A program made the translations under genes and the position numbers. A DNA stretch of 64,000 bases from Cucumis sativus. Taxonomy: Eukaryota > Streptophyta > Magnoliopsida > Cucurbitales > Cucurbitaceae. Shown piece by piece: positions 25,501-49,101 of this stretch; positions within the stretch are counted from its first letter, which is position 1, and each line of letters starts with the position of its first letter. Under the pieces are notes generated by a model. That model made no database searches and had not been told where the DNA came from. It saw nothing but the letters and a program-made list of their open reading frames with translations. The stretch spans positions 33,094,732 to 33,158,731 of the forward strand of contig NC_026657.2 in assembly GCF_000004075.3 (NCBI RefSeq), read 5' to 3'.

Positions 25501-28500
25501 ATTTAAATGTCAAATTTTATATTACAAAAAAAATGTAACAAAACAATAGATAGACAACTGTATCCTGGTCCCATAACTGATTCTTATACAAAAGGAGAAC
25601 TCACCTTCTCGCCATTAGCTACTGTTCCACCATTACCGTGTCCAGTCTGACCATCAACAACCGTTTTTTCCTTCGCTTTTTGTTTCTGGATTTTTCGGGT
25701 GCACAATTCGATATATACTAATTGGTTCATGGCTACATGACTCGCGATAAATAAATATCTACTAAGTTTATCTATGTGGACAGTAGTTAATATGTCCCCA
25801 TTTCCACTTTCAATGTCAGCTTGCAGTTCATCATCCTTGTTACCATTAAAAACAGAAGTAAGAGAATTTTTAACCAAATTTGCTGCTAAGATTTCAGGGG
25901 ATGGATGAATTGAATATACAGCTGCTATGGCTTTATCAGCAGCAGCATACCATATCTTCTCTGGAAGCCAAGAACTAGTAATCAAGCTTTCCAGCTTATC
26001 GAACACCCGGCTACCATTACCAGCCAACAACCTTTTCTTGTCATTTTCAGACAGTCTCTGGAGGGCAATGCACGCTGTTCTGGCAAGTAAAGGGTCCACC
26101 TTAGACCATCGACCAAACCCAATGTCGATAATGTCCTGTATATGAGAGCCAAGAATACCAGCAGATGATTTTGATGCCATGCAAAGAACAGACAATGCTC
26201 CCCGGCTTTGCTCTGCTGTTGTTCCACCAACATTAAAGCAAAAAAAATCCCATAAAGCTGATATCTGGAGAAAAGGGGGGACAAAAACAAAATACACTTA
26301 TTAAAATTCTTCTACATTCCATTGTAGAAACAGGCACACCATCAATAATGGTGGGGAGATCAATGCGCCGTTAACGAGTATGGCTCGGTAAAATCGCAAC
26401 AGTTAACAATTAACACACAAGCTGTTCAGATGCCATCATACAAGAACCGAATTTATAACTTGTACCTCAATACAGGAATGCCGATCTAATTAGTAATATC
26501 TGATAACTCCAAGTAATTGAAGACACATTTATCCATATTTTTTAAATTGATGTGGTAGTACATGACCCACATGCCAGTCTAAAGTTATACGTCTGTTTCC
26601 ACGTCCCTTCAGTCAATACAATGAATATCATAGAAATGAATTCATTCGCTAGTAATTTTACTTCTAGAATCCGAGCCCGTACCCAACTCATTCAGATGCC
26701 ACTCAGGCCGTAGAAAATAATACGAAATGAATTTTTGTCGACTAAGTTCCTTAAACCTTACAACCTCTTTGCTATTTTTTTAAACATTATGTCCTAAAAT
26801 TAACTGGCCTATTACTCTCGATGAGGACCTATGAAAGTCCTTTTCGTCCCTAAACGACTAGAGAACTATTCGCTTTAAATTTTTCACTGTCATAAGACAC
26901 AATTGTCAGGCTAAACTTTCCAGAAGTTGTTAACTTGCTAAGAAACGATATGAAACAGAGATATAAAGCGAGGCATACCGTGCTACTAGATATATCACCT
27001 TTCGACACCAAGGCATCAATCATAAACTCCAGAGCGGCAAGATCTCCAATGTTTGAATCAATGGCAAGATGTAGAAGATTTTTGGCAGTTTCAATTTGGT
27101 TTTTTGTTATATATATTGTTATGAAGGCATTCTCAACAGCTTCATATATAGATTTATCTTGAGAAAATGCCTACAAAATAAAGAGAGATAAAAAAAACAA
27201 AAATTTAATCTACAAAATGGAAAAACAAAAATTGACAACTTTAAGCCCTGAAAAAAGTTAAAGCATACCAATGGCAACATTTTACGGAGGCAAGCCTCTG
27301 AGCCATCTATTTGGAATTGTCTGCACCTCATCAACAAAAGAATTGTATTCTCAACGTCAGTGGCAGAAGAAGAAGCCATTAACTGAACTAGTATTGGCAT
27401 TGCTTCTGATATACATGTTGAAAACCTCAAACCAGCCTCCAGAGATGCAACTAAAGCCCTGATCTGCTCCGTGTTTCCAACATCCAAAGTCAAATTGTCC
27501 TTCTGAACAACCTCCTCTTCCATTTGAGGAGGATAACTATCAGTTAAACTATCCTGCCGGTTCCCTCCCTCACCTTTTATATGGCCGTTATCAACCTCAC
27601 CATCACCATTAAAGATATCGCCATCAAATGGCGAGCCACCATCCACATTTTCGGAGGACTTATTAGGTTCAAGCTCGTCTAATTTTTTCTTATACTGCTC
27701 TAGAGTTGCTTCAAATGAAACTACTCGCAGCTGTGGGCCAAATGGATTGTGCTGCAACATACTGATGAGCAATTGCAATGCAGATTTTCGGACAATTGCA
27801 CTCTTATCCTCCAGCCTTCCAGCTGCAACTGCTGCCACTTCATTCCACAAACCGATAGAAACAGAATGTTCTTCACATAGTTCAGCCCAAACCTGAAGAA
27901 CTCGACTCCTAGTGTAAGCTGAAACATCCCGGCAACGTTCAAGCAAGATTTCTAGCATTGCCTGCTTGCTCCGAAGACGAACTGATTTACAACTCTGTTC
28001 ACCTTCAATGTCGCAAAATGCTTTAACAGTCAGCTTACCAAGAACCCCCACCAGAGCATTTCTTATTTTATAGGATTCACCACCAAAATGTGGAATTAGA
28101 AGTCCAATGTTGGTCGAGAACAACTTTGGGAGCCTGTCAGCAAGCTCTACTAGGAATCGCCCTATGTTTTCAGCCCCAGCTGTATCTTTAACATATTCTT
28201 TCGGGTTAGTCCTTCCAACATCTCTAATAAGAGAGATTGCAAGGATTCCATCGGAATATTTCTTCTCTGCCCCGGCAACAGCATCAGCCATATGGGTCAC
28301 AACGTAATCATACTTATGAATAAGGTGCATAATTGAGGCACATGATTGGGTAGTAAAGTGATATTTTGTTGAACAAGCACCAATTATACGACACAGAGCA
28401 TCCTTTGTGTCAACGTCCTTCAAAAGGACTGAATTCTCGAACATTGAGAACACGTTTCTATAGAAAACCCAAGTTAAAAATGTTCAAATTACAAGTAAAT

Positions 28501-29395
28501 AAACATGGGAGTTGTTTTCACCAAGCTAAGGAGTAGAACGTACTTTGTAACAAAAGACAGATAATTCTCATCTGGGTCTGATGAACCAAAGAGCAACGAG
28601 ATATTGATCTCCAGTGAATTAGCAATCAAGTTTAATATACGGCCCCTCTGCATTTCCCAATCCCACGAACTTTTGGGCATTTTCTTCCGAGTACTAGCAG
28701 TCACCTACGGTCAAAATTGAGAAAAAAAGGATGAAATTCGAATAAAGCTAACATAACCAAAAAATCTATCAAACCATTTCGAAAGCAAATAATAACCAGC
28801 AAAAAGGAATTAGAAGAAAACCTTTGAATTGTTACTACTACTACCATTGGCTTCCTCACTGTTGACGATATTGAGGAGGAAAAACGTATAGATTTTAAAA
28901 GCATTACGATGGGACGCAATCTGATCAAGCACCGGAGCGTCGCCATCATTGTTTGGGGAAGCACGAGCAAGCGAATCAATGTTGGGAAGAAGAACACTGA
29001 AATTGGAGCGAAGACTCTCAACAATATTCAACTTACAAGAGGGAGAGAGGTGTTTGTAGTCTCGAATCAAAGAGTAAACACGGTCGAAAGTATCCTGCTC
29101 TTCAACGCAGAAGAGGTCCTTATCGGAAAGATCAAAGGAAATGCCTAAAGAAATTCAAGGAAATGAAGAATGAAGATAAGAAATTAAGGGTGGTGATATG
29201 GTATGATATGTGTTCCGAAATGGAAGAACAAAAAGTAGTGAAAAGAGTGGAAGAGGACGAACCTTTGACGAATTCTTCGAGTTGAGATGGAGGAAGAGAG
29301 GCGATTTCAGTGGGATTCTGAACGGAGAGACGGTTGTCTTCGTAGTCTTGTTCGAGAGAACGAAGAGTTTGGGGGAAAACGAAGAGGGGAGCCAT
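22548..29395 (-). CDS. CAP-D2: Condensin I complex subunit 1, CAP-D2
   Basis: HEAT-repeat subunit of condensin I, which with SMC2/SMC4, CAP-G and CAP-H compacts mitotic chromosomes. Sixteen exons, in transcript order: 29395-29263, 29144-28822, 28704-28544, 28457-27269, 27170-26979, 26264-25605, 25492-25316, 24902-24835, 24757-24535, 24452-24353, 24274-24159, 24088-24031, 23402-23251, 23169-22971, 22861-22706 and 22606-22548. All phases join without a stop, giving 1321 residues, the usual length. The Cnd1 N-terminal region lies in roughly the first 250 residues. The C-terminal Cnd1 HEAT block, residues about 950-1110, contains NCTIALGDLAVRFPNLLEPW and SVRKNAVLVLSHLILNDMMK. An acidic linker lies around residues 480-530. 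The tail is acidic (ESEITE, ESSEDGES) and ends in a basic KRRSSRRG. If intron 15 is retained, translation stops at 22683 after GIMRPKN and the basic tail is lost. Confidence 0.93.
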
Positions 29396-29489
29396 TGGAG
29401 AGAGAAGAAGAAGCTCCAGAAGAGCTAAAAGAAGAATGTTGAGTATCCAAATTCAAATCGTAAGGGCTTTTCAAGGAGCGGGAAGGCAT
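29307..29489 (-). promoter_or_regulatory. Overlapping upstream ORF at the CAP-D2 start
   Basis: A 60-codon serine-rich frame starts 94 bases upstream of the CAP-D2 ATG and runs out of frame past it. If transcription begins above 29489, this would be an inhibitory overlapping uORF. An E2F-like TTCCCGC (29478-29484, read on the minus strand) lies just inside its start, so the true transcription start may be further downstream and the frame untranslated. Confidence 0.3.
29478..29484 (-). promoter_or_regulatory. E2F-like site in the CAP-D2 promoter
   Basis: Read on the gene's strand the sequence is CTTCCCGCTC, one base short of the E2F consensus TTTCCCGC, about 85 bases before the start codon. 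Condensin genes are cell-cycle regulated and E2F control would fit. A single 7-mer is weak evidence. Confidence 0.3.
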
Positions 29490-29495
29490 TTTCCG

Positions 29496-30337
29496 GTCGG
29501 GTCGGGTTGTGATCGCTTTATTTCTTACTTTAATAAATACAAATGTTTTTAAATTCTAAAATAATAAGAATATATATTAAAATTTAACTTTTTTTTTTTA
29601 TGTTTTTTTATGTCCAAATAAATTAATTAAACAATAAAAAAATGTAATGATATGTCAAACTTTTTATTTTAAAAAATTGATAAATAGTTATATAGATTAA
29701 TGGATAAGAAATTGATTCATTTTAAAAGTGGATGATTCCCAATTTCCAACCATGAAAAGAAAATATACTTTGATAATAAGTAAATAGAATTGTAAATGAT
29801 AAAATTTCGAGAAATATTTATAAAATATAGTAAAATTTTAACTTCTATCCATTTTTATCAATACCACCAACAAAAATTGATAGAAGACATTGAATTTTAT
29901 TACGTTTCATAAATATTTTGATTCGTTTGATGTAAGCTAAAAAAATTTTCCATTTCATAAATAGTTTGATTCGTTTCGCTATATTTGTGAGTTTGAGCTT
30001 TTCAAATGGAAACAGAGTTGAATTTTATATAATGAGTTTTGAAAAGTGTAACAAATAAATAAACTTTCAATTTTGCTTTTAATAAACTATTAATCTTTTA
30101 CTGGAATCATGACCTACATTTTTTAAAATGACACAAAATTGAAAATATTATTGTTTTGATAAATACAAAATTAACTTTATATCTTATAGATATCTAAAAA
30201 TACTGAAAACTTTTTTACACACAAAATTGAAACATCTCTCTCTAAATATATACAACCTTGGTATAGGGGTAAGTTTTTTAATCAAAGAAGGGATTTTCTA
30301 CGAGGATCAACTTTTCCGTGGTAAAAATATGTAGTTT
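29496..30337. other. AT-rich spacer upstream of CAP-D2
   Basis: No gene is visible. Around 29800-29960 there is a fragment of the dispersed family, with 'aaaatatagtaaaatttta' followed by CTATCCATTTTTATCAA and ATTGATAGAAG words. The right end abuts copy A of the segmental duplication. Confidence 0.5.
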
Positions 30338-30422
30338 ACAGAAATGAAAACATAACGGAAAAATTCAAAGGTCCAATGCAGACCAGAGAGTTAGGAATTG
30401 ATGAAATTGAAGAAGCCTCCGA

Positions 30423-30527
30423 TCAGCCAATGTGAAAAGCGCCAACGTCGCCAGTTCTGGTGGAGCAGGTGACTTCGTGGGCAAAGGCCAAACAAGAAGA
30501 AATACAGCCGCTAAGAGTCCAACTCAT
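30423..30527 (-). pseudogene. Truncated copy of the 48-residue small ORF
   Basis: The last 29 codons of the small ORF at 37377-37523 reappear here (SGCISSCLAFA, then RTGDVGAFHIG and stop). Everything upstream of the SGC codons is missing because a deletion joins this sequence to DNA equivalent to 37.82 kb. A chance ATG keeps the frame open for 34 codons. Over the shared part I count five amino-acid changes (D/H, A/T, S/C, I/T, I/V) and one synonymous change, which fits relaxed constraint in this copy. Confidence 0.65.
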
Positions 30528-30529
30528 AC

Positions 30530-32638
30530 TTAACAACTTCCAACCATAGTCAAAATCCGAAAAACATGAAGCTGTTTAAAACGGGAGGAGTGACTCTGAT
30601 TAGCGAAGCTCATGCTAGATGGCATGCTTCATTGGCGCGGCAGTGAGTAGCGAGATTGACTGCTCAAACTTGGACAGAAGGACAACACAACATGGCTCCG
30701 CACTCAACCACAGACCTGATTTTGTCAACCACAAACGTTCTGATTCTGTTGACCACATTGAGCATAACGAGATGGATCCATGAAGTTCTTCGGTTCTGGA
30801 GTTCTGCCGTTTACAGATTAAAAATTAGTATATGTTTTAGCCATTTAGAAGGCTTTTATATAACTTCTATTAGCTACAGGTTTATTAGCCCAAGCTCAAC
30901 CCACGCCCCGGCTCTAACTTCTCATTGTTTATTTCTAATAGGAATCTACATGATCTCTTCCTGTAATACATGTTTGTTTCTTCCGCATGAGAGCATATGA
31001 TTTATGAATGTATACTTTAAGGATATGAAAAACAATAGATATATGTTCTAAAAATCAAAAGCAAAAGTCATATGAATAATCAACGTACGGGATATATTCC
31101 AATTATCAAAGCACAAAAGTATGGCTTTGTTGAAATAACTTGAAATAAAAAGTTAGAAAACACAAAAAGAAGAAAAATGGATAAATTCATCCTTTCTTTT
31201 AAATAACATAGTTTATAGACTAAAGAAGACAGACCTGTAACGAAGGACAGAGATATAGCTTAGTTGTTGATGGTGGAAGCAATCTCATCCGTACAAGTTG
31301 TATGCTTCCCTATTTGCCATTTGCCCGTGAATATGGCTGGCAAGAGAGATGAAGTGGATATTAATAACAGGAAATTTGATGTTATAAGGAAGCAATAATA
31401 CAAAGTTATAAACATACCAAATGACAAATCAAATGTGATTTTAACATATTTTTATGACTCTAAATCTAAAGATTAACTGTGAACTGCCTGCTTCCAAATA
31501 CTACATGATCTTTCACAAACAAATAATAGAACATACAGCAGACTCAATGAAAAGAGCTTGGACTGGCAAACGAGATTTTCCATTTCAGAAGCAAATTTTA
31601 TGTTTGTTTTACACATTTCTCCACTTTTTTCTCTTGATTTCTCGGTTTAAATATAAGGATATAAGGATATAAGAAGTAAGAACCCACTACAAAAAATCTC
31701 TAGAACCATGAAAATTACAAATTCAAGGAACTTGTCACTCGAAAATATATTTAACTAACCACTAAGTAACCAAATATAAACAAGTAAACGTAGAATAAAT
31801 TATAAATAGCCAAGTTTCTAAATCTAAAATATACCTAAAACATTTCAGATCTTAAATATATTTAAGACAATAAAATAGAAAATAACACAAAAAACTATCT
31901 TTTACTTCTGTAATAATTATAAAAGAATACTTGACCTCAAAATTAGCAGGTCATGGAGAGATTCGATCAACTCCAGAATAAAATGAAATCACTATGGCCT
32001 CAATTTACTAAGCTCAGACCTCAGAATTCACAAGTCAAACTATGATATTCATCAGAAAAGGCAACTAGGAAGCAAATTGAGTGAAATTGCTATTATTGAA
32101 ACAATCAAGTAGGCGTAGTCTATGAATAATGTGTGTTGGATAATTCTTGTATCATGGACAAACGAATTGAACCAACCTCTGGGTGTAGCTTAGAAACTTA
32201 TAAAAAGAACTCTATTTGTGAAGGTCTCAGAAACCACAAGCCATCCATTTCTGCTAGTTCTCACTGCAAAGCTGAGAAAGGACAAAAAAAGGGCGGGTGT
32301 AACAGGTGCATCCCAGTTTTGAAAGCCAACTGGAAGGCCAAGAATATGTACATTACACTTACGGTGATGTTAATATTCTGTCAAAAACTTGTGAAACACA
32401 TAATCGAATGGGCACCATGATCCAACAGAGTTCCCTTCCTGTAGTGCCACTGTCAACACCTTGTCTCATCGACACATAGAAAATGTTTCATGATCATCCT
32501 CATCAAAAGGAATTAGTAAGCCGATCATAAAGCAAATAAATAATTCTCTCGTATATTCTTCCCCAGTTTAATTGCAACACATTTAGCATCACGGAAGAAT
32601 ATAAGGCTGGCCATGCAAATTTGCTACCAGTTCCAGGC
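30530..32638. other. Non-coding part of duplication copy A
   Basis: No supportable coding exon. The interval is alignable with 37.82-40.96 kb at roughly 85-90% where both copies are present. It likely includes the 3'UTR of the minus-strand PPR gene. Short frames such as 32133-32420 are not conserved in the other copy, which carries indels there, so they are not called. Confidence 0.55.
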
Positions 32639-34588
32639 TCATGCCATCACTAAATTGAAATCTATTGTTAAGTCTTCATACAATGTATGACCAATCTTCT
32701 TCATTTTCGTATGTAGATCATGAAGTAAAAGATAAATATTTTCAAATTCGCGATGAGAATTGTCACCCACTACGAACACATGCACTGTGTTTCCAACTTC
32801 TATCCAACTGCAACCAGGCTGCTTCTTCAATCCTTTGTCCTTCATTTTCATCCTTACTCCGGCAGCTTCTCTCCATTTTCCAGTTGAAGCATATATGTTA
32901 GATAACACCAAATAGGTTCCCGCATTCTCTGGCTCAGTTTCTAAAAGTTTTTCAGCCGTTAACTTACCTAGATCTATATGCCCATGAACATTACATCCGG
33001 CAAGAAGAGCTGCCCAAACAGATGCCGAAGGCTTGACCTCAAGCCCCTTAATGAAATCAAATGCCTCTTGAAGCCGTCCAGCTCGACCAAAAAGATCAAC
33101 CAGACATGTAAAATGATCTTCTCTTAGTTTTATAGACCTATCTCTTACGAGGTTTTCAAATAATTTCAACCCCTCATCCACAAGACCAGCATGACTACAA
33201 GCAGAAAGCAATGCAATATAGGTGACATTATCAGGACGAAAACCCAATGCCTGCATTTCATCAAATAAACTAATTGCTTTGTGGCCATGGCCATGATGAG
33301 CATAGGCAGCAATCATACCATTCCAAGAAACCACATCCCTGTGGCCTATTGATCCATCATCAAATATTTTGCGAGCCAGTTCTAACTCCCCACATTTTGA
33401 ATACATGTTTATTAAAGCTGACACCACATCTGCAACTTCTTGGTAAACCGTCTTGCTTATTATCTGGTGAATTTGCTGTCCCTCACAAAGAGCAGCTAAT
33501 TTACTACAAGCACCCAACACACTGACAAAAGTTCCTTCATTTGGTTTTACGTTGTTTGCTGCTTGCATTTCTGAAAAGATCTTCAATGCTTCTTCACTTC
33601 GCCCATCTTGAACGTGTCCAGAAATCACTGCCGTCCAAGTGACAACATTTTTGTTGGACATTTTATAGAAAAAATCCACTGCCCTTTCTAGTTTACCGTT
33701 TTGAATGAACCCAGTAATCATAGTGTTCCATGAAGACAGTTCCCTCTCTGGCATTTGCTCAAACAGTTTGAATGCCTCGTCAAGTCGCATATTCTGAGCA
33801 TACCCAATAATCATTGTATTCCAGGAAACCACATTTCGCACGGGCATTTTATCAAACAGTAATCGAGCATCATCGATTCTACCATTTTTCGACAAACCAG
33901 CCACCATGGTGGTCCAAGAAATCACATCTCTCTCTGGCATCCGATTAAAAAGCTCCTGGGCTTCATCTACCCTCCTACGTTGCATGAACGCTGTAATAAC
34001 AGTATTCCAAGACACCACATTCCTCTCAGGCATTTTTTCAAACAAATCCAAAGCCTGATCTATCCAACCTTTTCGTGCATACCCTTCAATCATAGTGTTC
34101 CACGAAATGACATTCTTAACAGGCATGGCATCAAACAATCTTCTAGCCTCCTCAATCCTGTTCCATCTTACATACCCACTAACCAATGCTGTCCAAGTAA
34201 CAACATTCTTTATAGCATCATTTCTATCAAATAACGTCTTGGCTTCCTCAATCATTCCACATTTAATATACCCAGTAATCACAGCAGTCCATGAGACCAC
34301 ATCTCGATCAGGCATTTCTTCAAACACCTGACGTGCTTCTCCAATTTTTCCTTCTTTACCAAGCTGTGTGATCAACCAGTTACTACGAGCAACATTCGAA
34401 TTGGCACTGAAATCTCTAACTGGTGATGAGATTTTGGGAACAACCTGACAGGTAGAGAACTGTGATGATAAGATGGAGTTATGCAAATTGCACAAGAGGA
34501 ACGCATATCTACCGAAGCTAGAAAGAAGAGTTGTGGTTTTATGTTTACCACAAATTTCTCCAACAGATATCTGATACAGTAAAGACAT
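32639..34588 (-). CDS. PLS-class pentatricopeptide repeat protein, E-type, probably mitochondrial
   Basis: Intronless, 649 residues. PPR proteins bind organellar RNA; PLS members with E domains usually act in C-to-U editing. After a presequence-like N-terminus rich in Ser and Leu with few acidic residues (about 1-65), a long run of roughly 31-residue S-type repeats follows, each with the signature DVVSWTAVITGY or NVVSWNTMI and ending in A..LF..MP. Longer L/P repeats follow (KPNEGTFVSVLGACSKLAAL, RPDNVTYIALLSACSHAGLV). The C-terminus has E1 and E2 motifs (SVWAALLAGC, LSNIYASTGKWREAA, KKQPGCSWIEV). No DYW domain is present; the protein ends at DFNLVMA, so any editing would need a partner DYW protein. 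It resembles Arabidopsis At2g35030, from memory. A broken second copy lies at 40966-42021. Confidence 0.93.
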   Translation of the reverse strand: MSLLYQISVGEICGKHKTTTLLSSFGRYAFLLCNLHNSILSSQFSTCQVVPKISSPVRDFSANSNVARSNWLITQLGKEGKIGEARQVFEEMPDRDVVSWTAVITGYIKCGMIEEAKTLFDRNDAIKNVVTWTALVSGYVRWNRIEEARRLFDAMPVKNVISWNTMIEGYARKGWIDQALDLFEKMPERNVVSWNTVITAFMQRRRVDEAQELFNRMPERDVISWTTMVAGLSKNGRIDDARLLFDKMPVRNVVSWNTMIIGYAQNMRLDEAFKLFEQMPERELSSWNTMITGFIQNGKLERAVDFFYKMSNKNVVTWTAVISGHVQDGRSEEALKIFSEMQAANNVKPNEGTFVSVLGACSKLAALCEGQQIHQIISKTVYQEVADVVSALINMYSKCGELELARKIFDDGSIGHRDVVSWNGMIAAYAHHGHGHKAISLFDEMQALGFRPDNVTYIALLSACSHAGLVDEGLKLFENLVRDRSIKLREDHFTCLVDLFGRAGRLQEAFDFIKGLEVKPSASVWAALLAGCNVHGHIDLGKLTAEKLLETEPENAGTYLVLSNIYASTGKWREAAGVRMKMKDKGLKKQPGCSWIEVGNTVHVFVVGDNSHREFENIYLLLHDLHTKMKKIGHTLYEDLTIDFNLVMA

Positions 34589-35204
34589 TCGTATCCACTA
34601 ACTGGGTACCTCCGCCGCGCCGGAGAAAAAGATCGAAGAAAAAGGGAGCGGCTGTTTTTGTCGTGATTATGTGGAAGGGACAATTTTTTTTCCATTAATT
34701 TTGGTAATATTACATCTTTCTCAAAAATATCAATTTTGACCTCAACGCCAATGGTTGATTTTTCTTATATCTTATGAGTGTTAAAATTTGCTATTTAAAA
34801 AAAAAAATCAAAATCATTTTACTGCTTACTTTCCCATGTGAGTCTAATTTAATATTGGCATTTCTAAGTAACATTTTTCCATTTGTTTTTCTTTTCTTTT
34901 TTTTAATTTAATACATCTTTTAACAAATTTATTATCATCCAAATTTATTATTATGTCATCAACAATAGGCCACATAAACTATTATATATGTTGTGACTGT
35001 TTTGATTTTGTGTTGATCGATTTTAGAAAATGTCAAATAGTCACAAATTAAAAGTTAATAGACACTCTAGTTTGGGTTAAAAAATAAATAAAAATATTGT
35101 TAAAAACGGTTCCTTCCTTGAAAAACAACCAACAAAAGAATCAATATGATATAAAATAGGAATTAAAAAACAAAGATCAAGTAAAAAGTAAAATTTCATT
35201 ATCA

Positions 35205-35300
35205 CAAATAATGAGCATTGTTTAACTTACATCGTGTTTACAAAGTTATGCCATCAATCACAAAATCCAATGTTCGATTCACCCACCCCACATACTATCA
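35205..35300 (+). mobile_element. Possible degenerate tRNA-derived SINE
   Basis: GTTCGATTCACCC resembles a tRNA B box (GGTTCGANNCC), and GAGCATTGTTTAACTTACATC upstream is reminiscent of the region after an A box in plant SINEs. No poly(A) tail or target-site duplication was found. Weak call. Confidence 0.25.
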
Positions 35301-36606
35301 GACAAAAGAATTCATAAATCTCTACTATCTTAAGCAAGTATACAAATATAAACTTGCAAGGCAGGGAAGTTATAGCTCATTAGCTCTATCGTTGCTCCAT
35401 ATCTAGTCTATTAGAAAAAAGTTGTTCACTAAAAGATACTGAGTGTCTCATCATACAATTGAACAAGTCTTCAATCTATATTACCTTGAATTCAAAGTAC
35501 TTTCAAAGTTTCTCTCACACATCAACAACTTTAAATTGTTGGTCACATTGCGACAGCCTCACAATCTAATTTCGTTAGTAGGGGCGCTTGACATCCATTC
35601 ACTAGCTAGATTAAGGTGAATAGTCTTCATAGTTACAGGCAAGTCTTCAACCTCAAGTTATCTAAGCCCCCAAGCCAAGCCACCATCTCTGAGAAGTTTC
35701 ATAGTTATAAAAGCCCAATCTAGAGAATAAAAATAAGAAAATGGCATTGAAATTATATAACAAGATATAAAAGGGAAAAATTACAATACAAAGCACTTCT
35801 AGAGGGGCCTCTAAAAAAAACTACACTTCATACGCTATTTTTAGCAATAAACTAATATGTTCGTCCCATGGTCAGTCCCAGGTAGTAATGGAAGCACCGC
35901 TGCTCCATAAGACAGATGGAATATGAGACCACCCAAAATGGAGGAGATCCTTAAAAAGGAAAACCATCAACATTGTTAGGCATTTTTATATGAAGTTTAC
36001 GCGGCTCTAACTCGCTCTATTTACAATCACCTTTCACTAACCAATTCCTAATGATGACAAACATGCGCTTCTGATATCTTGAATATTTCTCAAACAACTT
36101 CCCAACTAGTAGTCTTAACAGATCTATACAAGCAGATAAGAGTCAGCCATCCTTTTCTAGTTTTACAATGGAAATTAATCGTCTAATCTCCAATTGGACT
36201 TTCAGAAAACTAAAAAGTATATTGACTGGCTCCTACTTAGAGAGACCCTATTGAAGAATAGATCCCAAACAAACGTTCTTTCCAGCTAATTTTCAATTAT
36301 CATAAGACAGTATGAAAGATTAGTATATCAGATACAGTTAAGATGTCAATCAATATTCAACCCATAGTTGTAAAATCTTGACAAGGAGGATAATATTCAA
36401 TTGAAATGAACCAATAAAATAAAGGAGATAACTGATAATGGATTGCATAGTGAAAGAGTAGAATAGTACGAAAATGTATAACGCCCTAAAGTGCTTCAGA
36501 ATAACTGGGGGATGCTCCCATCTCATAGAAGAAAAAAGAAAACAAAATTAGCACATGGAGTTCAATGACCATTAAGTTGATATAGCAGGCATCTGGACCA
36601 AATTAA

Positions 36607-36802
36607 GTTCATGTTTGAAAGTGATTTTGAAGTGGCTAAAACCATTTTTGTAGTGTTCAAAATCACTCCAAAACATTCATTTCATTACTCAAAATCAATT
36701 CAATATTTAACTTTACACGTTTAGAGACAATTTTCATAGTATTCAAATTGATTTTGAAGAAATAAAAGCATTTTTCGAGTGATTTTCACTTCTCAACATG
36801 AC
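36607..36802. mobile_element. Short MITE-like element with terminal inverted repeats
   Basis: The left end CATGTTTGAAAGTGA matches the reverse complement of the right end (CATGTTGAGAAGTGA) at 13 of 15 positions. The 196-bp interior is built from GATTTTGAA and CAAAATCACTC words, resembling a common dicot MITE as I remember it. No clear target-site duplication was found. Non-coding. Confidence 0.5.
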
Positions 36803-37376
36803 ACAGATCCATATTTTCACCATTCCAACAACCCTTCTATTTGATGGAAATGACATATTTTGGATGCCCAATGATCAAATGCTAAGCATTCGTTTGTACA
36901 AGAAGCATAAAATTGCTGCCACAAAAACTTGGCATATTAGCTCTTCAAACTTGAGAATGTCAGTTGAATCAATGAAGAGGAAACCGAGTAATAGTTCGCA
37001 TTTTAGGTAGCTATAAACATGAATAACCACTCAAATTGCAACCTCTTCAATTTCTTGAAAAAGCAAAAGACTCGGCAGATCAATTGTTGCAAAATGGCAT
37101 TCCAAACCACAGTTCAAATGATTGAGAGAGAAAAGATGACCCGACCGACTCTTGAAACCCTATCAATATCACAAGAACTGGAAAGAGCATAATTTGCAGA
37201 AATCCATGATTGGAAAATCTCAAGGTTGCTCTTCCGTGGACATGAATTAGGTAAAAAACACAATTACTAGACAAAAACAAACATTCAAACTTCAGAAATG
37301 AAAACAAAACGGAAAAATTCAAGGCCACAATACAAACCAGAGAGTTAAGAATTGATGAAAATCGAAGAAAACCCGG

Positions 37377-37523
37377 TCAGCCAATGTGAAAAGCGCCAAT
37401 ATCGCCAGTTCTGATGGAGCTGGCGACTTCGTCGGCAAAGGCCAAACAAGAAGAAATACAGCCGCTAAAGGCACCCCAAACCATATCGGCGATCCAGAAC
37501 GCCAAATGCAATGGCAATGCCAT
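37377..37523 (-). CDS. Candidate 48-residue small protein
   Basis: A 147-base frame with a good initiation context (GGCCATGGC) in a patch of higher GC and coding-like composition. The protein begins MALPLHLAFWIADMVWGAF, a hydrophobic, Trp-containing helix that could be membrane-inserted or a signal-like segment. It continues SGCISSCLAFADEVASS and ends RTGDIGAFHIG. I do not recognise a named family. Upstream on the same strand lies a 16-codon uORF (MASSNPNLSIPSMDFL, start near 37620). The truncated copy at 30423-30527 differs mostly by non-synonymous changes, so constraint, if any, acts on this copy. No introns are needed inside the coding part. The assignment rests on composition, context and copy comparison only. 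Confidence 0.5.
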   Translation of the reverse strand: MALPLHLAFWIADMVWGAFSGCISSCLAFADEVASSIRTGDIGAFHIG

Positions 37524-37529
37524 GGCCTA

Positions 37530-40500
37530 AACTGTGTGTCGTTGGAGGAAAGAAGGTGGTTGGGAAGTTTCAGAGGAAATCCATTGAAGGAATTGAGAGA
37601 TTAGGATTAGAGGACGCCATTGGAGAAAAGAAGCAGAAGAGAATTTGGGTAAAGGTAAAAAGGCTGGAAGCTAAAGATTGAAGAAATGTTGACTCATAGC
37701 GCCTAAATAAAGCCGATTTTACAACAATTTCTTTTTCCGGAAAATTAGTTTTTTAGTCCTTTTAATGTATAAATAAATAAATAAGCCTATATTAAAGGAG
37801 GGCAAAAAAGTCCAACTTTATAATTAACAACTTCCATCCCACTATAATCATAATCCAAAAATGAACATGGAGCTGTTTAAGGCATTGAGTAGGGAGATTG
37901 CTCAAACATGCACAACAGTGGAACGAGATGGCTTCCTATTCTCGACATAAATGTTTTGACTTAACCCCTTCTTAAATCTTTGTAAGATCAGTTGATATAT
38001 CATTTACGCGATCATCTAACTATCCATAATAAGTGAAGTTTTGGAGGGGCTAGTCACTCGAGTAAACTTGAGTTTGCTTTGATTTTGAATTGAGCAAGTG
38101 TAGATTTCAATACTGAATGCTGACAATGAATCATCTATTCAAGACCTCTTTTTTTAAGGATGAGATTTTAGGTATATTCCCGTAGTTGTTGGGTTATTTA
38201 ATCACAAGCGCAACTATATGAAACAAAGTCTATTTGGTCTTTAGGTTTCAAAATGTTTGATTTCAATTTAATTTCTAAATTTCAACGTGGTAAACTGAGA
38301 GTAAGTTCCTAAAATGACTTGTAAAACCTATATTATGAACATCAAATAATTCAATTGTACTATGTCACCGATGCAATTGAAATATAAACTAGAAATCAAG
38401 CTCACTTTCTATTTTGATATGTTTTCAAATATATTAGTCTAGGTAATTGATTTGTATGAAAGTCAATCCAACATTGAAACCTAAATAAATTAAGCCTTGG
38501 TAACTCTTTCAATTTTTTAAAAATATGACCCATGTCTAAGGTCAACTATTGTATGTTTGTCTAACCATATTTCAGTATTAAAGTATAGAACATGTAAACC
38601 ATCTATTTGGATACATATTAATTATTCACACACTTACATTAAAAAAAATGCAAGATGGATTTTCAAAGATTTCGACTTTCCATAAAAAATCTTACATGCA
38701 ATAAATAAAGGGATAATTATAGTAGGTAACAATTTTAAAAATAAATAATTAAATATATAACAATATTTTTAAAAAACTGTAAATATAACAAAGTTTATAG
38801 ACTAATATTTTCAATGAGATATATTAGTGCATAGTCATTTATCAAGTCGATGGACTTCTATGAGTTTGACACTTGGTGACAACCACAATAATACAATTCT
38901 TAGGCAACTCACAAACTAAGGCGAGAGAGCAAGAGCAAGAGGGAAACGAGGAAAGGAAAAGCAATCAATAAATAAGTTTAGTAAAAACAGTTAAATTTTA
39001 TTCTTCCAGAAAATTTGAAGTCATCCCTGCCAAAAAACACATAAACAAAGTTCATGAACTGTTTTACATTTTACATTTTTGACACAAATGGGGCAGTCAA
39101 AGACAAGGAAATGAATAGAACGGAAGAAAGCTAAAGAAACATGAAAGGAGTGAAAGTGCTCATTGCTCAAGAAGTGATCAAGATCCACACTCAACTCAAC
39201 TCTCACTTGTCATTGTTTGTTTCCAATAGGAATTTACATGATTTCTTTTCCTGTAATACATGTTTGTTCCCTCCGCATGAGAGACGTATGAATGAATACT
39301 TCAGCAATATAAAAAACATTGAAACATGTTCTAAAAATCAAAAGCAAAAATCATATGAATGAAGAACGATAGTGTTTATTTCAATCATCAAAGCACAAAA
39401 GTATATGCTGTAAACTATACTTCGATTGCTTCTTCGGTATATGGATTTGTTTCGTTGAAATAACTTGAAATCAAAAGTTAAAAAGCACAAAAGGAAGAAA
39501 AATTGGATAGATTGTTCTAGTTTCCAAAGCACAACCATTAGCTTCTTCAAATCGATATTTTGATTGCTACCCGCCACGCCTTTTTCTAAATAACATAATT
39601 ATAGATTAAAGAAGACTGACCTGTAAAAGAGGGAAGAAATCTATCTTAGTTGTTTGATGGTGGAAGTAATCTCATCCATACAAGTTGCTTGCTTCCCTAT
39701 TTACCATTTGCCTGTGAATATGGCTGACAATGAGAGATGGAGTGGATATTAATAACAGGAAATTTGCTGTTATAAGGAAGCGACAATGTTATAAACATAC
39801 CAAATGATAAATCAAATGTGATTTTAACAAATTTCTATGACTCTAAAGATTAATTTTGAACCGTCTGCTTGCAAGTGTTATATGATCTTATATAAACAAA
39901 GAATAAAACATACAGCAGACCCAATGAAGAGAGCTTGGACTACCAAAACGAAAATTTCCATCTCAAAAGAAAATTTTACGTTTTTTTACACACTTCTCCA
40001 CTTTTTTCTCTTGATTTCCTGGTTTAAATATAAGGATGTAAGAAGTAAGAAACCATTACACAAAATCTCTAGAACAAAGAAAATTACAAATTCAAGGAAC
40101 TTGTCACTCGAAAATGTATTTAACTAACCACTGAGTAACCAAAAATAAACAAGTAAACGTAGAATAAATTATAAATAACCTACTTTTCTAAATCATATCT
40201 TAAATATATTTAAGACAATAAAGTACAATTTTAACAAAAAAAATTATCTTTTACTTTTGTAATAACTATAAAAGAATACCTGACCTCAAAATTAGCAGGC
40301 CAAGGAGAGATTCGATCAACTTCAGAATAAAAGAAAATCACCATGGTCTCACTATGGCTCTAAACCCTAGGTTCAGACCTCAAAATTCACAAGTCAAATT
40401 ATGATATTCATCAGAAAACGCAACTAGGAAGCATATTGAGTGAAAATGCTATTATTGAAACAATCAAGTAAGCGTAGTCTATGAATTATGTGTGTTGGAT

Positions 40501-40965
40501 AATTCTTGTATCATGGAGATAGGAATTGAACCATCCATTTCTACTAGTTCTCACTGCGAAGCTGAGAAAGGACAAAAAAATGGCTGGTTTATCTTTCTTG
40601 CTTTGATTTAATTTTCGTAACAGGTGCATCCAGGTTTTGAAAGCCAACTGGAAGGCCAAGAATATGGACATTACACTGTTACTGTGATGTTAATATTCTG
40701 TAAAAATCTTGTGAAACACATAACCGAATGAGCGCCCTGATCCAACAGAGTTCTGTACCCTACCTGTGGTGTCAATGTCAACACATCTCATCGACACATG
40801 GAAACTGTTACATGATCATCCAAGTAAGAAGGAATTAGGTAGCCGACCATAAAGCAAATAAATATTCTCTTATATTCTTCCACAATTTAATTGCAACGCA
40901 TTTAGCATCATTGAAGAAGATAAGGCTGGCCATGCAAATTTCCCGACAGTTCCAGGCTCATGCCA
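37530..40965. other. Non-coding part of duplication copy B
   Basis: It comprises the small-ORF leader and promoter (37.53-37.8 kb), a block absent from copy A (about 37.93-39.19 kb) with degenerate AT-rich repeats, and 39.2-40.96 kb, alignable with 31.0-32.6 kb. No supportable exon. Confidence 0.5.
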
Positions 40966-42021
40966 TCATAAATTGAAATCCATTGTTAAATCCTCATGCA
41001 ATGTATGACCAATCTTCTTCATTTTCGTATGTAGATCGTGAAGTAAAAGGTAAATATTTTCAAATTCGCAATGAGAATTGTCATCCACTACGAATGCATG
41101 CACTGTATTTCCAACGTCTATCCAACTGCAACCAGGCTGCTTCTTCAATCCTTTGTCCTTGGTTTTCTTTCTTACTCTGGCAGCTTCTCTCCATTTTCCA
41201 GTTGAAGCATATGTGTTAGATAGCAGCAAAAAGGTTCCTGCATTCTCTGGCTCTGTTTCTAAGAGTTCTTCAGCCGTTTTTATGCCCATGAACATATCTG
41301 GCAAGAAGAGCTGCCCAAACAGGTGCCGAAGGCTTGACCTCAAGCCCCTTGAGGAAATCAAATTGCATCAACGCTGAGCTTCATCCGATTAAAAAGCTGA
41401 GCTTCATTCTCTGGCATCCGATTAAAAAGCTCCTGAGCTTCGTCTACTCTCCTATGTTGCATCAACGCTGTAATAATAATATTCCAAGACACCACATTCC
41501 TCTCAGGCATTTTTTCAAACAATCATAGTGTTCCACGACACGACATTCTTAACAGGCATGGCATCAAACAATCTGCTAACCTCCTCAATCCTGTTCAATC
41601 TTACATACCCACTAACCCATGCTGTCCAAGTAACAACATTCTTTATAGCATCATTTCTATCAAATAACGTCTTGGCTTCCTCAATCATTCCACTTTCAAT
41701 ATACCCAGAAATCACAGCAGTTCATGAGACCACATCTCGATCAGGCATTTCCTCAAAAACCTTACGTGCTTCTCCAATTTTTCCTTCTTTACCAAGCTTT
41801 TTAATCAACCAGTTACTACGAGCAAGATTTGAAATGGTACTGAAATCTCTAACTGGTGATGGGATTTTGGAAACAACCCGATAGGTGGAAAACTGTGATG
41901 ATGAGATGGAGTTATGCAAATTGCACAACACCAACGCATATCTACCAAAACTAGAAAGAAGGGTTGTAATTGTATGTTTAGTATAAATTTCTCTAACTGA
42001 TATCTGATATAGTAAAGACAT
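40966..42021 (-). pseudogene. Broken PPR gene, paralogue of 32639-34588
   Basis: The N-terminal 99 codons are collinear with the intact PPR gene (about 18 amino-acid differences). Codon 100, Trp in the intact copy (VSW), is TGA at 41722-41724. Downstream about 68 codons continue in the same frame, then a deletion of about 44 bp shifts the frame near 41515. A deletion of roughly 870 bp removes most central repeats, with a rearranged junction at 41360-41470. The E-domain end survives (TEPENAGTFLLLSNTYASTG, KKQPGCSWIDV), and a one-base loss trims the last three residues. With this many independent lesions it cannot encode a functional PPR protein. Confidence 0.92.
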
Positions 42022-42114
42022 TTGTATCCACTTACTGGGTATCTCCGCCGCCTAGGGCTCGCCGGAGAAGAAGATTGAAGAAAAAGGGAAGGGCTATTAG
42101 TATCGTTTCTCAAT

Positions 42115-45100
42115 TAATCGCCGGCTGAATTAAAGAAAAACAAATAAACTATTTACAAAATAGTGAAATTTTGCTCTATTTTTTAAAAAATAGTTTTAAT
42201 ATTGGACTATTTTTTAAGATAAAATTTGTCCCGTCGCGGAAAATTACAATAATTTTATGAGAAATCAATTCCTATCAGTGATAGAAGATTATCATTTATA
42301 TAATCTAAAATTTTGCTATAGTTTGTAAATATTTTAATTTATTTTACTAATTTTAAAAGTGTCTCATTTTATTTAAATGGAAAATTGTTAAAAATATTTA
42401 AACATAACAAAATTTTATTATCTAGCGATGATAAACACTAATAAACATCTATTATTGTCTATCAATCTTCAACTATAGATTATACTAGTCTATTTCATAT
42501 AAACAATAACATCTTGTTATATTTATAAATGTTTTTGTTCATTTTCTTGAAAAAAAAAAATATCGTAAATGACAAAAGTATTGAAAATATAACAAAATTT
42601 TAGGTTCTATAAATTATATACAACAATAAGCTTCTATCAGTGTCTATCAATATCATTAATAGATATTGATAGAGTAATAGACCCCCAATAGATAAATAAT
42701 GATATCTATCGATGTTTAATAGTGATAAATTTGAAATTTTGCTATATTTTATAATTTTTTTATTTATTTGGTAATATTTAAAAATATATGCGCTTGTTTC
42801 TTTCTTCTTTTTTTTTTTCATATTTGAGAACACCCACTTTTGTTATCCCCTTTTGTAATGGGATAGTTATAAATTTAGCAATTATATTTAAAATAATTAG
42901 GTATATAACAACATTTTAAAATATTTACAAATATAGCAAAATTTGTCAAATTCTATCAATAATAAAAGTATAGATTATGTTTTAAATATTGATTTGTCAA
43001 TAAAAGACCATATGAATCTATCAGTTAATTCTATCAAAAAAAGTTTAATTTTATGGCATTCAAGAAAAGTAATCTTCTAGCATCCAAGAAAAGTTTAATA
43101 TTCCAAGTTTTCATTCTGAATAATCTTTCAAGTCTTCAATCTTTTAGAAGTTGTTGATCTTTCAAAAGTTGTTGATATCGAGGTTGATACGAATTTGCAC
43201 GTATCAACCTTGCTTGTAGAAGTTTGAATATTCGATACTTCATAGCTTCAATTATTCCTTCAACCAAAGACATTCTCAAATGAGTGGCAAAAGTCTCTAT
43301 TTATAGAGAAATTTCGTGAGCTTTTGGGTGGGCTTTGACCCATTTGCTTGATGGGTTTGGGCTTGTGTCCATTTGCCTATTGGGCTTAGGCCATCCGATT
43401 GTTGAGCTTGGACTTGAGCTTGACTCCATTTATTTTATTGGGTTTGGGCTCATCTGCTTGTTGAGTTTGAATTTGGTCGGATTGAGTAAATTTAATTATT
43501 CAAACTCAAACAAAAATATAATTATCGCAATATTTGCCATGATGTCGCAGAATTTATTTGTCTAAAATTTCTTGCTCAACAGTTGCTATATCCTAAATTA
43601 TTATTTCTAAAAAGACAATCAATTATATTTATCATTTTTATATTAAAAAACCTTAAAAGAAGAATAATATTTGTGAAAAAAAAAAAACTAAAGATCAATT
43701 GCTCATAAATCTAAAGCTTGAAAAAATCTCCAATAACAATAATAAAAAAAAAAAAAAAAAGTAAGCTTATAAGATTGAAAGCCCTTAGCAACACATTTCT
43801 TGAGTCCTAAATGGGACAACAAAGCAATACAATTATACAAACCTTCCATAAATACCCAATTCCCATTGGATGGTAAAATTTGGTAAAGCATGCATTTCAA
43901 ATATTTAATGAGCAAAATGTCATCTACAAATAAATGGTCTCACCCTTCATACTCATTATAATCAAAAGACATTACCACATGATCCAAATTAGTCTGTGGT
44001 GGTTGCCCTACCCATTTATTCTTAAAGGTCACTTTATATTTTATATCAAAATCGATCGGTGTTTAAATAATCGACTACTCAAACAGTCGAGACTACATTC
44101 AACCTAAATATATGTTATAGATAGATTTAAGTATTTTAAGTTAATAAAAAAATTTACTTAAAATAAATAAATACCCCCACAACCCAACTTATTATATTTT
44201 GGTCGTTTGGTTGAGAATAATCTATATACTCATATCCTTATCAAAATTGTTTATAATTAATAAATACACTTGTTTTTTGTGTTGAGTATCATTAGATAAG
44301 TTAAATAATGGATTTAGTCCCTGGAACTTCTAAAATTATAAGTTGAAGTTTCAATTTTCTAATTTAAAAAAAAAAACACACACCCACACACATTGAACAC
44401 AAAACTTAAAACTTCTAGTTTATTAAACATATAGTATAATTACAAGTAATAAATTTGAAATATTTTTTTTAAAAAAAAGAATACATAAAACTAATTGAAA
44501 ATTTTAAGATTTATTAGATATATTTTCAATTTGATTGAGGAGATATAGATGAATTCAATGTTATAAACATATAATATGATTACATACAAAATTCAATTTT
44601 CAAGTAGTGTCAACATAATATCAAACTTATAATAACATATATTTTGAATCTAAATATTGTTTTATTTTCTACTTCATATTATCATCTCTAATTAAGATAT
44701 CAATCAAAAGAAAGTTTTTAAAAAACCATGTTTTTTCTTCTAAGTGGACCAATTGACAGAGGTGACATCCTTGAATTTGATATATATATATATATATATA
44801 TATTAATTCAAATGGAAATTATTGATTGAAGTAGTTGAGAGAAAGTAGAGTTTGTTTAATCTAAAAAGTTATTTAATAGACTCCATAAGCAATTAACAAT
44901 TCTTGAAATTTAGTGGTTTTTAGGCCACTAAAGATTTAAAAAATCTTTAGACCAAACAAAAAGGAAGATCTAGTATCTCAATAATAGGTCTATTAGATTA
45001 AAATTGACAATTCATAAACTTTTTGGATACAAAAGAGTAGTTTTAAAGTCGTTATTAAATCATTCTTAAGATCTTTTTTTACACTTTTTACATAATTTTA

Positions 45101-48100
45101 AATGTTTCGAACTAAATAAATGCAAACATCGAGGTTCAAAATAATCAACTAGCAATTTAGTGCCAAAACTTTTTATAGTTCAAATAGCATACAAAAACAG
45201 TAACGATCCGTTTAAATCCTCCAACCAATAATACCCTAGATAGTAAACCATATACTTTCAAATGTTTAAAGAATTTAGAGAGGCTAAAAGGTTTCAAAAA
45301 GAAGAAAATTAATAGCAAAACCCACTCAGTTCATATTATTTTCAATCTCATTTTCGTTTTGTCATCAATTATTAGTACTTTCTAACACACTTTTTTAAAA
45401 AAATTAATCTCGATTACGTTTTAGTTCTCCAAACAACTTTCAACTCATGTTAATGTTTGAATAAATGGTTATTATCTGTGAATAGATGCATCATGAGTGA
45501 ATTCATTATTTCATAAAAAGTATTAATAACTAAATTATAGAAAGAACATGACTTTTCGTAGACTTATTCGGTTAAGAGAATATATATCAATCATCTTTTG
45601 CCTTCTAAAAGGATTTTCTCACCATTTTCACAATCTTGACGTTCGATAGCTGATCCACAAGACTTTGTTTATTAATTTTCTATACGAGGTGTTACCCTTA
45701 AAAGAATGATGATCTGTTTTATCATAGGAGACAATTACTCTCGATACTCAAACGCTACGATGAATAAATTTGTCTTAAAAAGATGATGTGAATTTGTTTG
45801 ACTCAAATCTAGTGATGATAATTTTCATAACAATTTGATAATCTTTATAACAGATAAATCATTTAAAATGTAAAGACGAAAGTGGTATTTGTACGAACAC
45901 TCTATTGTAATGTTTATTCTTTTTTTGTTGTTATTATTATTGTGAAAATGACAAAAGTTACATAAAATGGCAGATTCTTAGTAAGAATTGGATAGTGAAA
46001 GGCATTAATTTTGAAAATGACATGTGAATTATACATTAATAGTTTGGGCCAAGAGCGGGTGGTGAGACAGCGATGAATTTAAATACCTTCAACTATATAT
46101 AGGAATATAATTCATTTTGGTGAAGACTTTGTAATAGTTCAACTTTCTCACATCTCACCTCACATTTTCATCCATCCTCCATACTACAAAAACATTCACT
46201 TTCCTATTCTTTAAATTCATGTTACCAAACTCTTTCTCTTTTACATGATATCCTTTTAACAAATATTTGGTCTATTTTCATTTACATTTTCAACTTATCA
46301 TTCCAATACAAATTTTATATAAAACCGTTTTAATCAAAATTTAAAAATTAATATAAAGTAATTCGAAACTTAAATCTTGCTTGACGTGTATTTATAAGTT
46401 TCTATTCATTTTGATAGTTGGACTCTTCAAATATTTTATTTCAATTTTAAGGACGTTGTTTCTTTGTTTTTCCTTTTGAAAACATGGATGAGTTTGGTAA
46501 CCAATTATTTTTTTTTAAATTGATTTTTGGTGATTTTTAATTGTGAGAATTGGAAAAATGGTCGGAAATAGTTTTTCTATTTTGTTTTGTGGACAAATTA
46601 GAATTAGAAAATTGGGGTTTTTTTTAAGATTAATAATAAAAAATAAATTTATTACGTTTAATTTTATTTATATCGACCGAAAATATTTTGCCTACTTTAC
46701 TATTTTTGACAAATCTCTTTATTTTTATGTTAACAAATACACCTTTCAAAATCTTGTTTTAATTATTTTTTATTTTCAAAATTATTTAATAATACGATCG
46801 AGTAATTCATAATGCTCACCTAACGTTACCAACCTCTAAGATTTCTATGCTCATTCATATTCTTAAAATAATAAAAAAAAAAAACAAATTTTTTATGACA
46901 TAAACAAAATAATGCTTAGAGTGAAAATGAAAATACCGATTTGACAAAAAGAAAAGGAAAACTCACAATATTTCTCTCTATATATATATAGAAACTATAA
47001 AGGTGTTAGATTCAAAGTTTTAAATAGTAAGATAAGAGATATAGGTAAGTATTAGCATAATAATGTTTGAGTTAGTAAATAAACACTCTAGTTATTATCA
47101 TATCAAATAAATACAAAGATTAGATAGATTGGTTTGTCTCAAGTGAGTCCAAAATGAAATTTGTAGAAAGTCAAATTTTACCATTTTATTTTATTTGCTT
47201 TGTGGGCATTGATCATTAATAAAAATAATCCATTTGATGCATTGGGATTTGGTATGTTTTGGATTTTCAAAATTAAATATCAAAATATGTGAATGTAACT
47301 GAATTTCGTCTAATATATGCCAAAAATACACGCAGCCAATTTTTAATTATTTGAGAATGTAGATTATTATTATTTATTTATTCTCTTTATGGTTGATTTA
47401 AGAATTTTTAAAAGAAAATAATCAATTTTATAAAGAAAAGAGTATATTACCAAAATATTTATACTTAAAAGAAAAAATGATTAGTTTTATTCTATAAACC
47501 ATAAATAGTTTGTCAAAATTTTATAATTTTTGAAAAAATCTCATTTAGTTATCAATTTACACCATAAATTAATAAATATATCAATTTAATTTCTTGATTT
47601 TAACACATGCATTATATTTATTTAAATTATTTATTATATTTTATTTAGATAAGTTTATGAATTATATCAATTTAAAATTTAAAATTAATATTTTTTTACT
47701 TTTTAAAAAAGAGTGATTCGTGAAAATAAAGTTATTAAATTTAGAATCACAAGAAATGTTTATTTTGAATTTGAGCACAACTTTTCATACTAAAAAACAC
47801 AAAAAATGGAAAGTAACTTTTAAAAAATAATAATTTAAAATATGTTTTGTAGTGATGAAAGTATAAAACCTTTTTAGATTTTCTCAATCCATTTTTGTTG
47901 AAAAGGAAAGAATATATAAAATATACTTTCGTAATATATCAATTCTTTCTTATTTAGTTTAGAAGAATTGGAGTATATGCACGGATATTTGGTAACGGTA
48001 TATTAGTCTTTTGCCTTTTTATTTGTAGATTTTTATAAAATAAAAAAATCAATGGTTACTTCTACAAAATCATAAGGATTTTTTTTTTAATTTTTGCCAT

Positions 48101-48820
48101 TCATAATAAATAAAATTTTTACTATCTTTGTAATTATTTTATTGTATCACCAATCAATGTAAAAAATTGAGACACGTAGCGAAATTTAATTATTTATAAG
48201 TTAGAAATATGAATACTAATTGAGAAGAAAAGAATCAGATTTAAAATTATGCATAAAAAAATCTGTGTAAAAGTAAATTTAATTACCTATCAAACCTAGT
48301 TTTTAACAATTATATTATTTAAATTAATTTCCCTTAAATTTATGGTGAAACTATAAAACCAAAAGTATTTAAAAAAAAAAGATTCTACTGGGTATTTGAA
48401 AATTTCGGTAAAAAGTTAGATAAAAATTGGATGAAATTAATGTTTATAAGCTTGATTTTTATAAAGAAAAAATCTAAATCTAAATAATTACCAACACATG
48501 CTTTAACAATTTAATTAAAATCATTTTTTTAAAGAAAATTTATTGTAAATGATATATATATGTATTTTATAAATAGTTTTAATATTTTGCTATTTTTAAA
48601 ATATTTAAAATATTCAAAATTTAAATCTATATAAAAGTAAAAATAAGTAAGTGTATTTTTTTGAGCGAATTTTGTAATTTGCCAAAATAAACCAAGTAGG
48701 AGAATCATTTATCCAAACTCCAAAGTGTAAAGATGCTATTTTTGCAAAGACCTTTTCTTGAAAAAACAAATAAAAAAAAAAAAAAAAAGAAAAACATTTC
48801 CAAGTCCCAACCGCGTCTCT
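42115..48820. other. Gene-poor AT-rich region with repeat fragments
   Basis: No supportable gene. Fragments of the dispersed TATCA/TGATA family occupy about 42150-43030. An LTR-like fragment lies at about 43050-43581. A TA microsatellite lies at 44780-44803. A promoter-like TATA plus CT-rich leader at 46093-46260 is not followed by any convincing frame. A stretch at 43703-43915 gives a short minus-strand frame of unknown nature. The remainder is low-complexity AT-rich DNA. Confidence 0.6.
43050..43581 (-). mobile_element. LTR-like fragment, possible solo LTR
   Basis: Read on the minus strand, the stretch begins TGTTGAGCAAGAAATTTTAG (TG start), then carries several degenerate units built around AAGCCCAA and CAAATGG, and then a strong TATA context (CTATAAATAGAG, 43296-43307) as in an LTR promoter. 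A TG...CA right boundary at 43581 is plausible, but the other end is not resolved and no 5-bp target duplication was found. Confidence 0.4.
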
Positions 48821-48962
48821 TCTGGTCATTTTCCGTGACTAAGAGAAGAGAGAGATTTGATATCTTCTTCTTCTCCATCATCTTCTTCTTCTTCGCCCAA
48901 TTCAGCATTTCCTCACTGCTCTCATTTCCCTTTAACCGCCATTTTTTCTTCTCTACCAGAGC

Positions 48963-49052
48963 ATGAACTTTGAACGACCAGAACTATTAGAACAAGAAGA
49001 AGAAGAAGAAAAAGAAAAAGAAAAAGACAAAGCTTTTCAGTTTACAGAGTGA
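48963..49052 (+). promoter_or_regulatory. 29-codon upstream ORF in the GRX-like leader
   Basis: An ATG in the CT/GA-rich leader opens a 29-residue frame (MNFERPELLEQ followed by a Glu/Lys run and KAFQFTE) that ends 49 bases before the main start at 49102. Because it terminates before the main ATG it would permit reinitiation. The leader upstream has the CTTCTTC richness typical of plant 5'UTRs. Whether the transcript includes it depends on the start site. Confidence 0.5.
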
Positions 49053-49101
49053 TTGATAACCAACGAAACGAAACGAAACCCAGTTCTTCAATTCTTTATC
49101 T

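Follow-up and report, generated by a model that had tools for sequence, protein, structure and literature searches.

How do two neighbouring genes that were duplicated together come to survive in opposite copies of the duplicated block? The question is raised by a locus in cucumber (Cucumis sativus), within a stretch of 64,000 nucleotides (C3:33094732-33158731) referred to here as the window, where one block carries an intact PPR gene and the other an intact small open reading frame (ORF). The explanation favoured here, with a probability of about 0.68, is that about 4.5 kb was duplicated locally and that each gene then decayed on one side in the ordinary way. The blocks and the DNA around them are as follows, in window coordinates.

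30339..34647, no strand: duplicate block A (blastn against block B)
34648..37292, no strand: spacer, where exon 2 of the small-ORF gene and the immediate upstream DNA of PPR-A are located
37293..42089, no strand: duplicate block B (blastn against block A)
49102-50208, plus: glutaredoxin-domain gene (ORF; Pfam)

As the earlier note had described them, the blocks are two copies in direct orientation to each other (blastn). Alignability between them is poor over B 37882-39199 and A 30581-30911, so that the "4.3-4.8 kb block" of that note is a span rather than a single unbroken alignment. The comparison is based on local pieces; a global MAFFT alignment put the left end wrongly. Over three such pieces within A 30912-32638, non-coding divergence is 11.3% (174/1536 sites), leaving out the piece with the small-ORF remnant (24/176), a 66-bp junction piece (9/66) and a 5' UTR piece (5/59). 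With window positions 31000-32000 as query, the genome (226.6 Mb, 88 contigs) gives four matches, all in blocks A and B. The part of block B without alignment to A contains a short dispersed repeat at 38710-38815, with at least 52 other matches (best 40 of 604 candidates scored). Right of block B, at 43157-43581, is a fragment of a high-copy repeat that has many matches of 72-80% across the genome (best 40 of 3631 candidates scored).

The PPR gene is represented in both blocks.

32639..34588, minus: PPR-A, intact gene for a 649-aa PPR protein with an E motif (ORF; Pfam PPR and E_motif above cut-off)
40958..42021, minus: PPR-B, pseudogene (alignment to PPR-A)
41364..41407, no strand: 44-bp filler at the large PPR-B deletion (sequence and alignment; resembles neighbouring sequence)

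PPR-A was said in the earlier note to be intact, and its 649-aa frame is indeed open throughout. Pfam finds tandem PPR motifs (PF01535, 364.7 bits against a cut-off of 25, in 14 stretches) and a C-terminal E motif (PF20431, 77.6 bits against a cut-off of 27.3, residues 536-597), and on this domain content PPR-A is a predicted E-class PPR protein gene. It resembles known E-class (PLS) PPR proteins (PF01535/PF13041 with E_motif PF20431) in its 14 PPR stretches and its E motif, and differs from them in that the E+ motif scores under cut-off and a DYW domain is not among the Pfam matches listed for it. Arabidopsis At2g35030 is a candidate orthologue. The cucumber PPR gene CsaV3_1G044080, as described in the literature excerpts available, is a gene other than PPR-A. 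A third close PPR copy was not found in the genome, where close DNA matches to the PPR gene are confined to A and B and the next match has E = 6e-18 (19 candidates scored). The second-best genome match of the PPR-A protein by score is 39% identical (83 matches listed; best 68 of 699 candidates scored), and some shorter local protein matches among those listed reach 52% identity.

PPR-B carries every type of lesion claimed for it, namely a nonsense codon, a frameshift and a large deletion. Tryptophan 100 is changed to a stop, 44 bp are deleted (A 34046-34089), 868 bp (A 33063-33930) are replaced by the 44 bp of filler, and further deletions remove 14, 3 and 1 bp. The filler is built of short pieces repeated from adjacent sequence, one 17-bp piece occurring twice within 50 bp, which is the pattern expected of templated end joining.

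The two PPR copies differ less than the non-coding DNA around them (79/1023 coding differences against 174/1536, p = 0.003). Block alignment and Ks dating, both proposed in the earlier note, give a pairwise Ks of 0.150 ± 0.029, a Ka of 0.065 ± 0.009 and a Ka/Ks of 0.44 for PPR-A and PPR-B (334 codons; one stop codon left out), a ratio that is as expected if one lineage is constrained and the other free. At the 48 amino-acid differences between A and B, five paralogues favour A at 22, B at 9 and neither at 17 (p = 0.03); these paralogues come from the 82 other matches listed, share 38-43% identity, and near the N-terminus few of them contribute aligned residues. Purifying selection on PPR-A is supported by these sequence comparisons. 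The local duplication, of about 4.5 kb, has a Ks of about 0.15. A rate of 1.5e-8 is quoted for dicots in the available part of one source (PMC7980335), at which a Ks of 0.150 would correspond to about 5 million years; a slower rate makes the duplication proportionally older.

The small gene has a more complex structure than its ORF suggests.

37377..37523, minus: small ORF B, 48 codons, intact (ORF reading)
about 37338..37651, minus: exon 1 of the small-ORF gene (98% identical to a spliced retrocopy on C5; the 5' end is where the retrocopy reaches)
35689..37337, minus: intron of the small-ORF gene, GT..AG, 1649 nt (missing from the retrocopy; splice sites read)
35459..35688, minus: exon 2 of the small-ORF gene, 3' UTR with the poly(A) site at about 35459-35461 (retrocopy and T-run)
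30426..30512, minus: small-ORF remnant A, consisting of the last 29 codons (exon 2 absent; deletion of the first 19 codons together with the 5' UTR and the DNA upstream)

The earlier reading that B keeps the 48-codon ORF and that A has lost its 5' half holds. The remnant in A is open through its 29 codons to the stop; copy A is then without the counterpart of B 37469-37806 (338 bp), and the blast pieces join at A 30514. A protein search of the genome with the small ORF finds three places, which are B, C5 and the remnant in A. The place on C5 was also reached with block B DNA, C5:27021447-27021761 being 98% identical to 37338-37651. At the same locus (L012), this exon 1 stretch is joined to a 99% copy of spacer positions 35459-35694. 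The splice junction is exact, with exon 1 ending in ACTCTCTG before GTTTGT, and TCTCAG preceding the exon 2 start AGATGG. Twelve T in a row, which read as poly(A) on the complementary strand, stand on the plus strand at the 35459 end of the C5 copy, and the window has two of these T. Since the intron is gone exactly and the T-run is present, the C5 sequence is a copy of an mRNA that had been spliced and polyadenylated. It has the features of a processed retrocopy: exact loss of a GT..AG intron, an untemplated poly(A) and a target site duplication. The small gene was therefore transcribed, with two exons, and its mRNA was spliced and polyadenylated. Lack of expression of the ORF at 37.4 kb had been named in the earlier note as an observation that would count against its proposal; the outcome is the opposite, as the spliced poly(A) retrocopy shows transcription. 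The ORF sits in exon 1, and exon 2 is pure 3' UTR.

The C5 copy and the window differ at 7 of 544 aligned sites (1.3%), plus one single-base indel at the 5' end. Two of the seven differences lie before the ORF, three within it and two in exon 2. Neither place has an interruption in the ORF, and C5 holds a second intact small ORF today. At 1.5e-8 a difference of 1.3% would correspond to about 0.4 million years, with a slower rate again making it proportionally older, which would make the retrocopy roughly one-tenth as old as the duplication. An origin so recent is probably too late for it to have relaxed selection during the decay of copy A of the small gene. Among the cucumber retrogene papers listed, no title or abstract opening names the C5 locus.

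Transcription leaves the coding status of the 48 codons as a separate matter. It is possible, if doubtful, that the small ORF is not coding at all, the transcript being a non-coding RNA in which the 48 codons are incidental; this can hold alongside any of the other explanations, and the probabilities attached to the explanations therefore do not sum to one. In its favour, relatives of the ORF were found neither in Pfam nor in the PDB at E <= 10, and pattern matches in bacterial and archaeal genomes (409) and in viral contigs (108) gave 0 confirmed relatives in either; both of these collections are plant-free, and absence there is uninformative. A tentative guess for the gene is AT3G57062, a name not found in the literature searched. 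Exon 1 has two upstream ATGs, which in the window open a 16-codon uORF (37570-37620, minus). By alignment, the stop of this uORF is altered in the C5 retrocopy, where the uORF would overlap the 48-codon ORF in a different frame. Translation of the 48 codons is thus not assured, least so from the retrocopy. Constraint on the small ORF was not detected over the 29 shared codons (6/87 differences against 174/1536 non-coding, p = 0.29), and five of the six differences change an amino acid while one is silent; this comparison includes the freely decaying copy A. Against a non-coding transcript stands the reading frame, uninterrupted in B and at C5 alike; the two versions are separated by two silent changes and one amino-acid replacement (Ala to Thr).

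The structure of the small gene bears directly on how the opposite losses arose. Exon 2 falls outside the shared block, within the spacer that separates A from B, and block homology begins at 37293, reaching over the first 45 nt of the intron. A copy of exon 2 near A was not found, as 35400-35800 used as a genome query matches the window and C5 only. With exon 2 outside the block and A ending 45 nt into the intron, copy A is without the 3' exon in addition to its lost 5' half. The earlier note had proposed that each block once held both genes; a PPR copy and small-ORF sequence are present in both, but copy A of the small gene lacks exon 2. The complementary losses described there consist of real lesions, but their symmetry is not supported. 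Its proposal that selection kept one copy of each gene agrees with the signature of constraint on PPR-A, and fails to find a counterpart in the small ORF.

The favoured sequence of events would begin with block B as the original setting of the small gene. A duplication breakpoint within the intron would have separated copy A of that gene from its 3' exon at birth, leaving it free to lose its start and upstream DNA through the 338-bp deletion. Survival of the PPR gene in copy A was perhaps chance; selection would afterwards have maintained PPR-A while PPR-B decayed. The small gene in B would have stayed transcribed, and one of its mRNAs would have been captured by a TRIM retrotransposon and inserted on C5. 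Several points count against this explanation: the membership of exon 2 before the duplication is deduced from this single genome, the small ORF is without a sign of constraint in the little sequence there is, and, with B as the original, it is the new PPR copy that survived and the old one that died, the reverse of what would more readily be expected.

Reciprocal retention under selection is an unlikely alternative in which each block initially contained complete versions of the two genes, neither gene could be lost entirely, and one copy of each was dispensable. The duplicated unit would then have extended beyond the visible block, with exon 2 next to A and the DNA upstream of PPR-B removed by later outer deletions. 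The complementary lesions fit this, as do the constraint on PPR-A and the transcription of the small gene, and both survivors border the spacer, as a larger unit with lost outer edges would have it. Two extra deletions are required, however, constraint on the small ORF was not detected, and a counterpart of the spacer left of A (22000-30338) or right of B (42090-52000) appears only as weak short matches (best E = 0.002). Elsewhere in the genome, the spacer matches are two dispersed repeats and exon 2 on C5 (best 40 of 108 candidates scored). Polarising the duplication by its flanks was rejected, given these weak short matches on either side. A first-exon-like frame of the left neighbour gene (start at about 29.4 kb) was likewise rejected as a polarity marker, as it is wholly left of A. 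This neighbour, on the minus strand, we take to be condensin CAP-D2-like; its Pfam match is limited to sub-threshold HEAT.

The reverse polarity, with A as the original and B as the copy, is less probable still. The small gene would have acquired exon 2 from the spacer when B landed, making the transcribed gene a duplication-made chimera, and PPR-B would have died from landing without its upstream DNA. The DNA upstream of PPR-A (spacer) and that upstream of PPR-B (from 42.1 kb on) indeed share weak short matches only, and since exon 2 is pure 3' UTR, a different downstream acceptor and poly(A) site could serve. In such a history a new splice acceptor and poly(A) site would have to arise fortuitously, and the small ORF in A would be the ancestral copy, yet it is the dead one.

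Decay of each gene on one side after a local duplication is preferred. If one copy of each gene must survive, the probability of survival in opposite blocks is 1/2, and so the pattern is weak evidence by itself. The tidy opposite-loss pattern is mostly ordinary decay. As in reciprocal gene loss of tandem or segmental duplicates, two linked genes were duplicated together and each survives in a different copy; unlike it, the copies here were probably unequal at birth, with the last exon of one gene outside the shared block. The duplication and the opposite losses are real and ordinary, and what is new is the two-exon structure of the small gene, its past transcription and its capture by a TRIM.

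The retrocopy lies within a chimera on C5 (L012:3164-4033, which is C5:27021163-27022032). It is flanked on both sides by AAAAC, a 5-bp target duplication that in AT-rich DNA is weak evidence by itself. At the left end is an inverted 44-nt LTR tail adjoining the T-run. The right part comprises a 67-nt LTR tail, a PBS-like motif, an internal part and a full LTR. The motif TGGTATCAGAGCC in the chimera is a putative primer-binding-site (PBS) motif. Counting the C5 locus, the genome contains at least 49 matches to the carrier element (best 40 of 428 candidates scored), and both outer ends are visible in four of nine copies examined. Two of these (L030 and L032) are 334 bp each with matching 5-bp flanks (ATGGG and ATTTC), a third (L033) is 324 bp with flanks agreeing at 4 of 5 bases, and the flanks of the last (L034) do not match. 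Judged by its short length, two near-identical LTRs, presumed PBS and 5-bp target duplication, the carrier is a TRIM. The chimera is located within an apparent intron of an alpha/beta-hydrolase-like gene (Pfam), antisense to that gene.

An inverted LTR tail running into poly(A) is the product expected if tRNA-primed strong-stop cDNA jumped to an mRNA tail. The C5 copy may accordingly be read, at slightly better than even odds, as a frozen reverse-transcription accident, in which a tRNA-primed TRIM cDNA copied 44 nt of LTR end, jumped to the poly(A) tail of the small-gene mRNA, copied both spliced exons, became linked to a second TRIM cDNA and then inserted, duplicating 5 bp of the target site. 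No standard step accounts for the second join, at the mRNA 5' end.

That TRIMs can capture gene pieces lacking introns is already known from the available parts of two sources (PMC4717578; PMC13317346), and the C5 chimera is like those cases in having intron-less exons in a small LTR element with a 5-bp target duplication. As far as the available text of PMC4717578 describes them, its TRIMs retain both LTRs, with the captured gene fragments lying in the internal region; C5, in contrast, has a transcript with an entire ORF and a poly(A) tail, and an inverted LTR end adjoins the poly(A). Plant retrocopies flanked by LTRs are also known (PMC4838847), and those described in the available part of that source are alike in that a host mRNA, with splicing complete or partial, was copied and lies between pieces of LTR retrotransposons. 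C5 differs in having a 334-bp TRIM as its element and in retaining the poly(A) tail, which the LTR-flanked retroCNV in Table 1 of that source, within the part available, lacks.

The chimera on C5 offers a clean example of an mRNA copy, complete in ORF and poly(A) tail, joined to a miniature LTR element of the TRIM type. If the proposed accident is true, a miniature retrotransposon that encodes no protein carried an mRNA with a complete ORF to a new site, apparently the intron of a hydrolase-like gene, where the 48-codon ORF is still open. The locus shows how a pattern of "reciprocal retention" can arise when a duplication breakpoint cuts one gene, and how a young retrocopy can disclose the structure of a gene and its former transcription even without RNA data.
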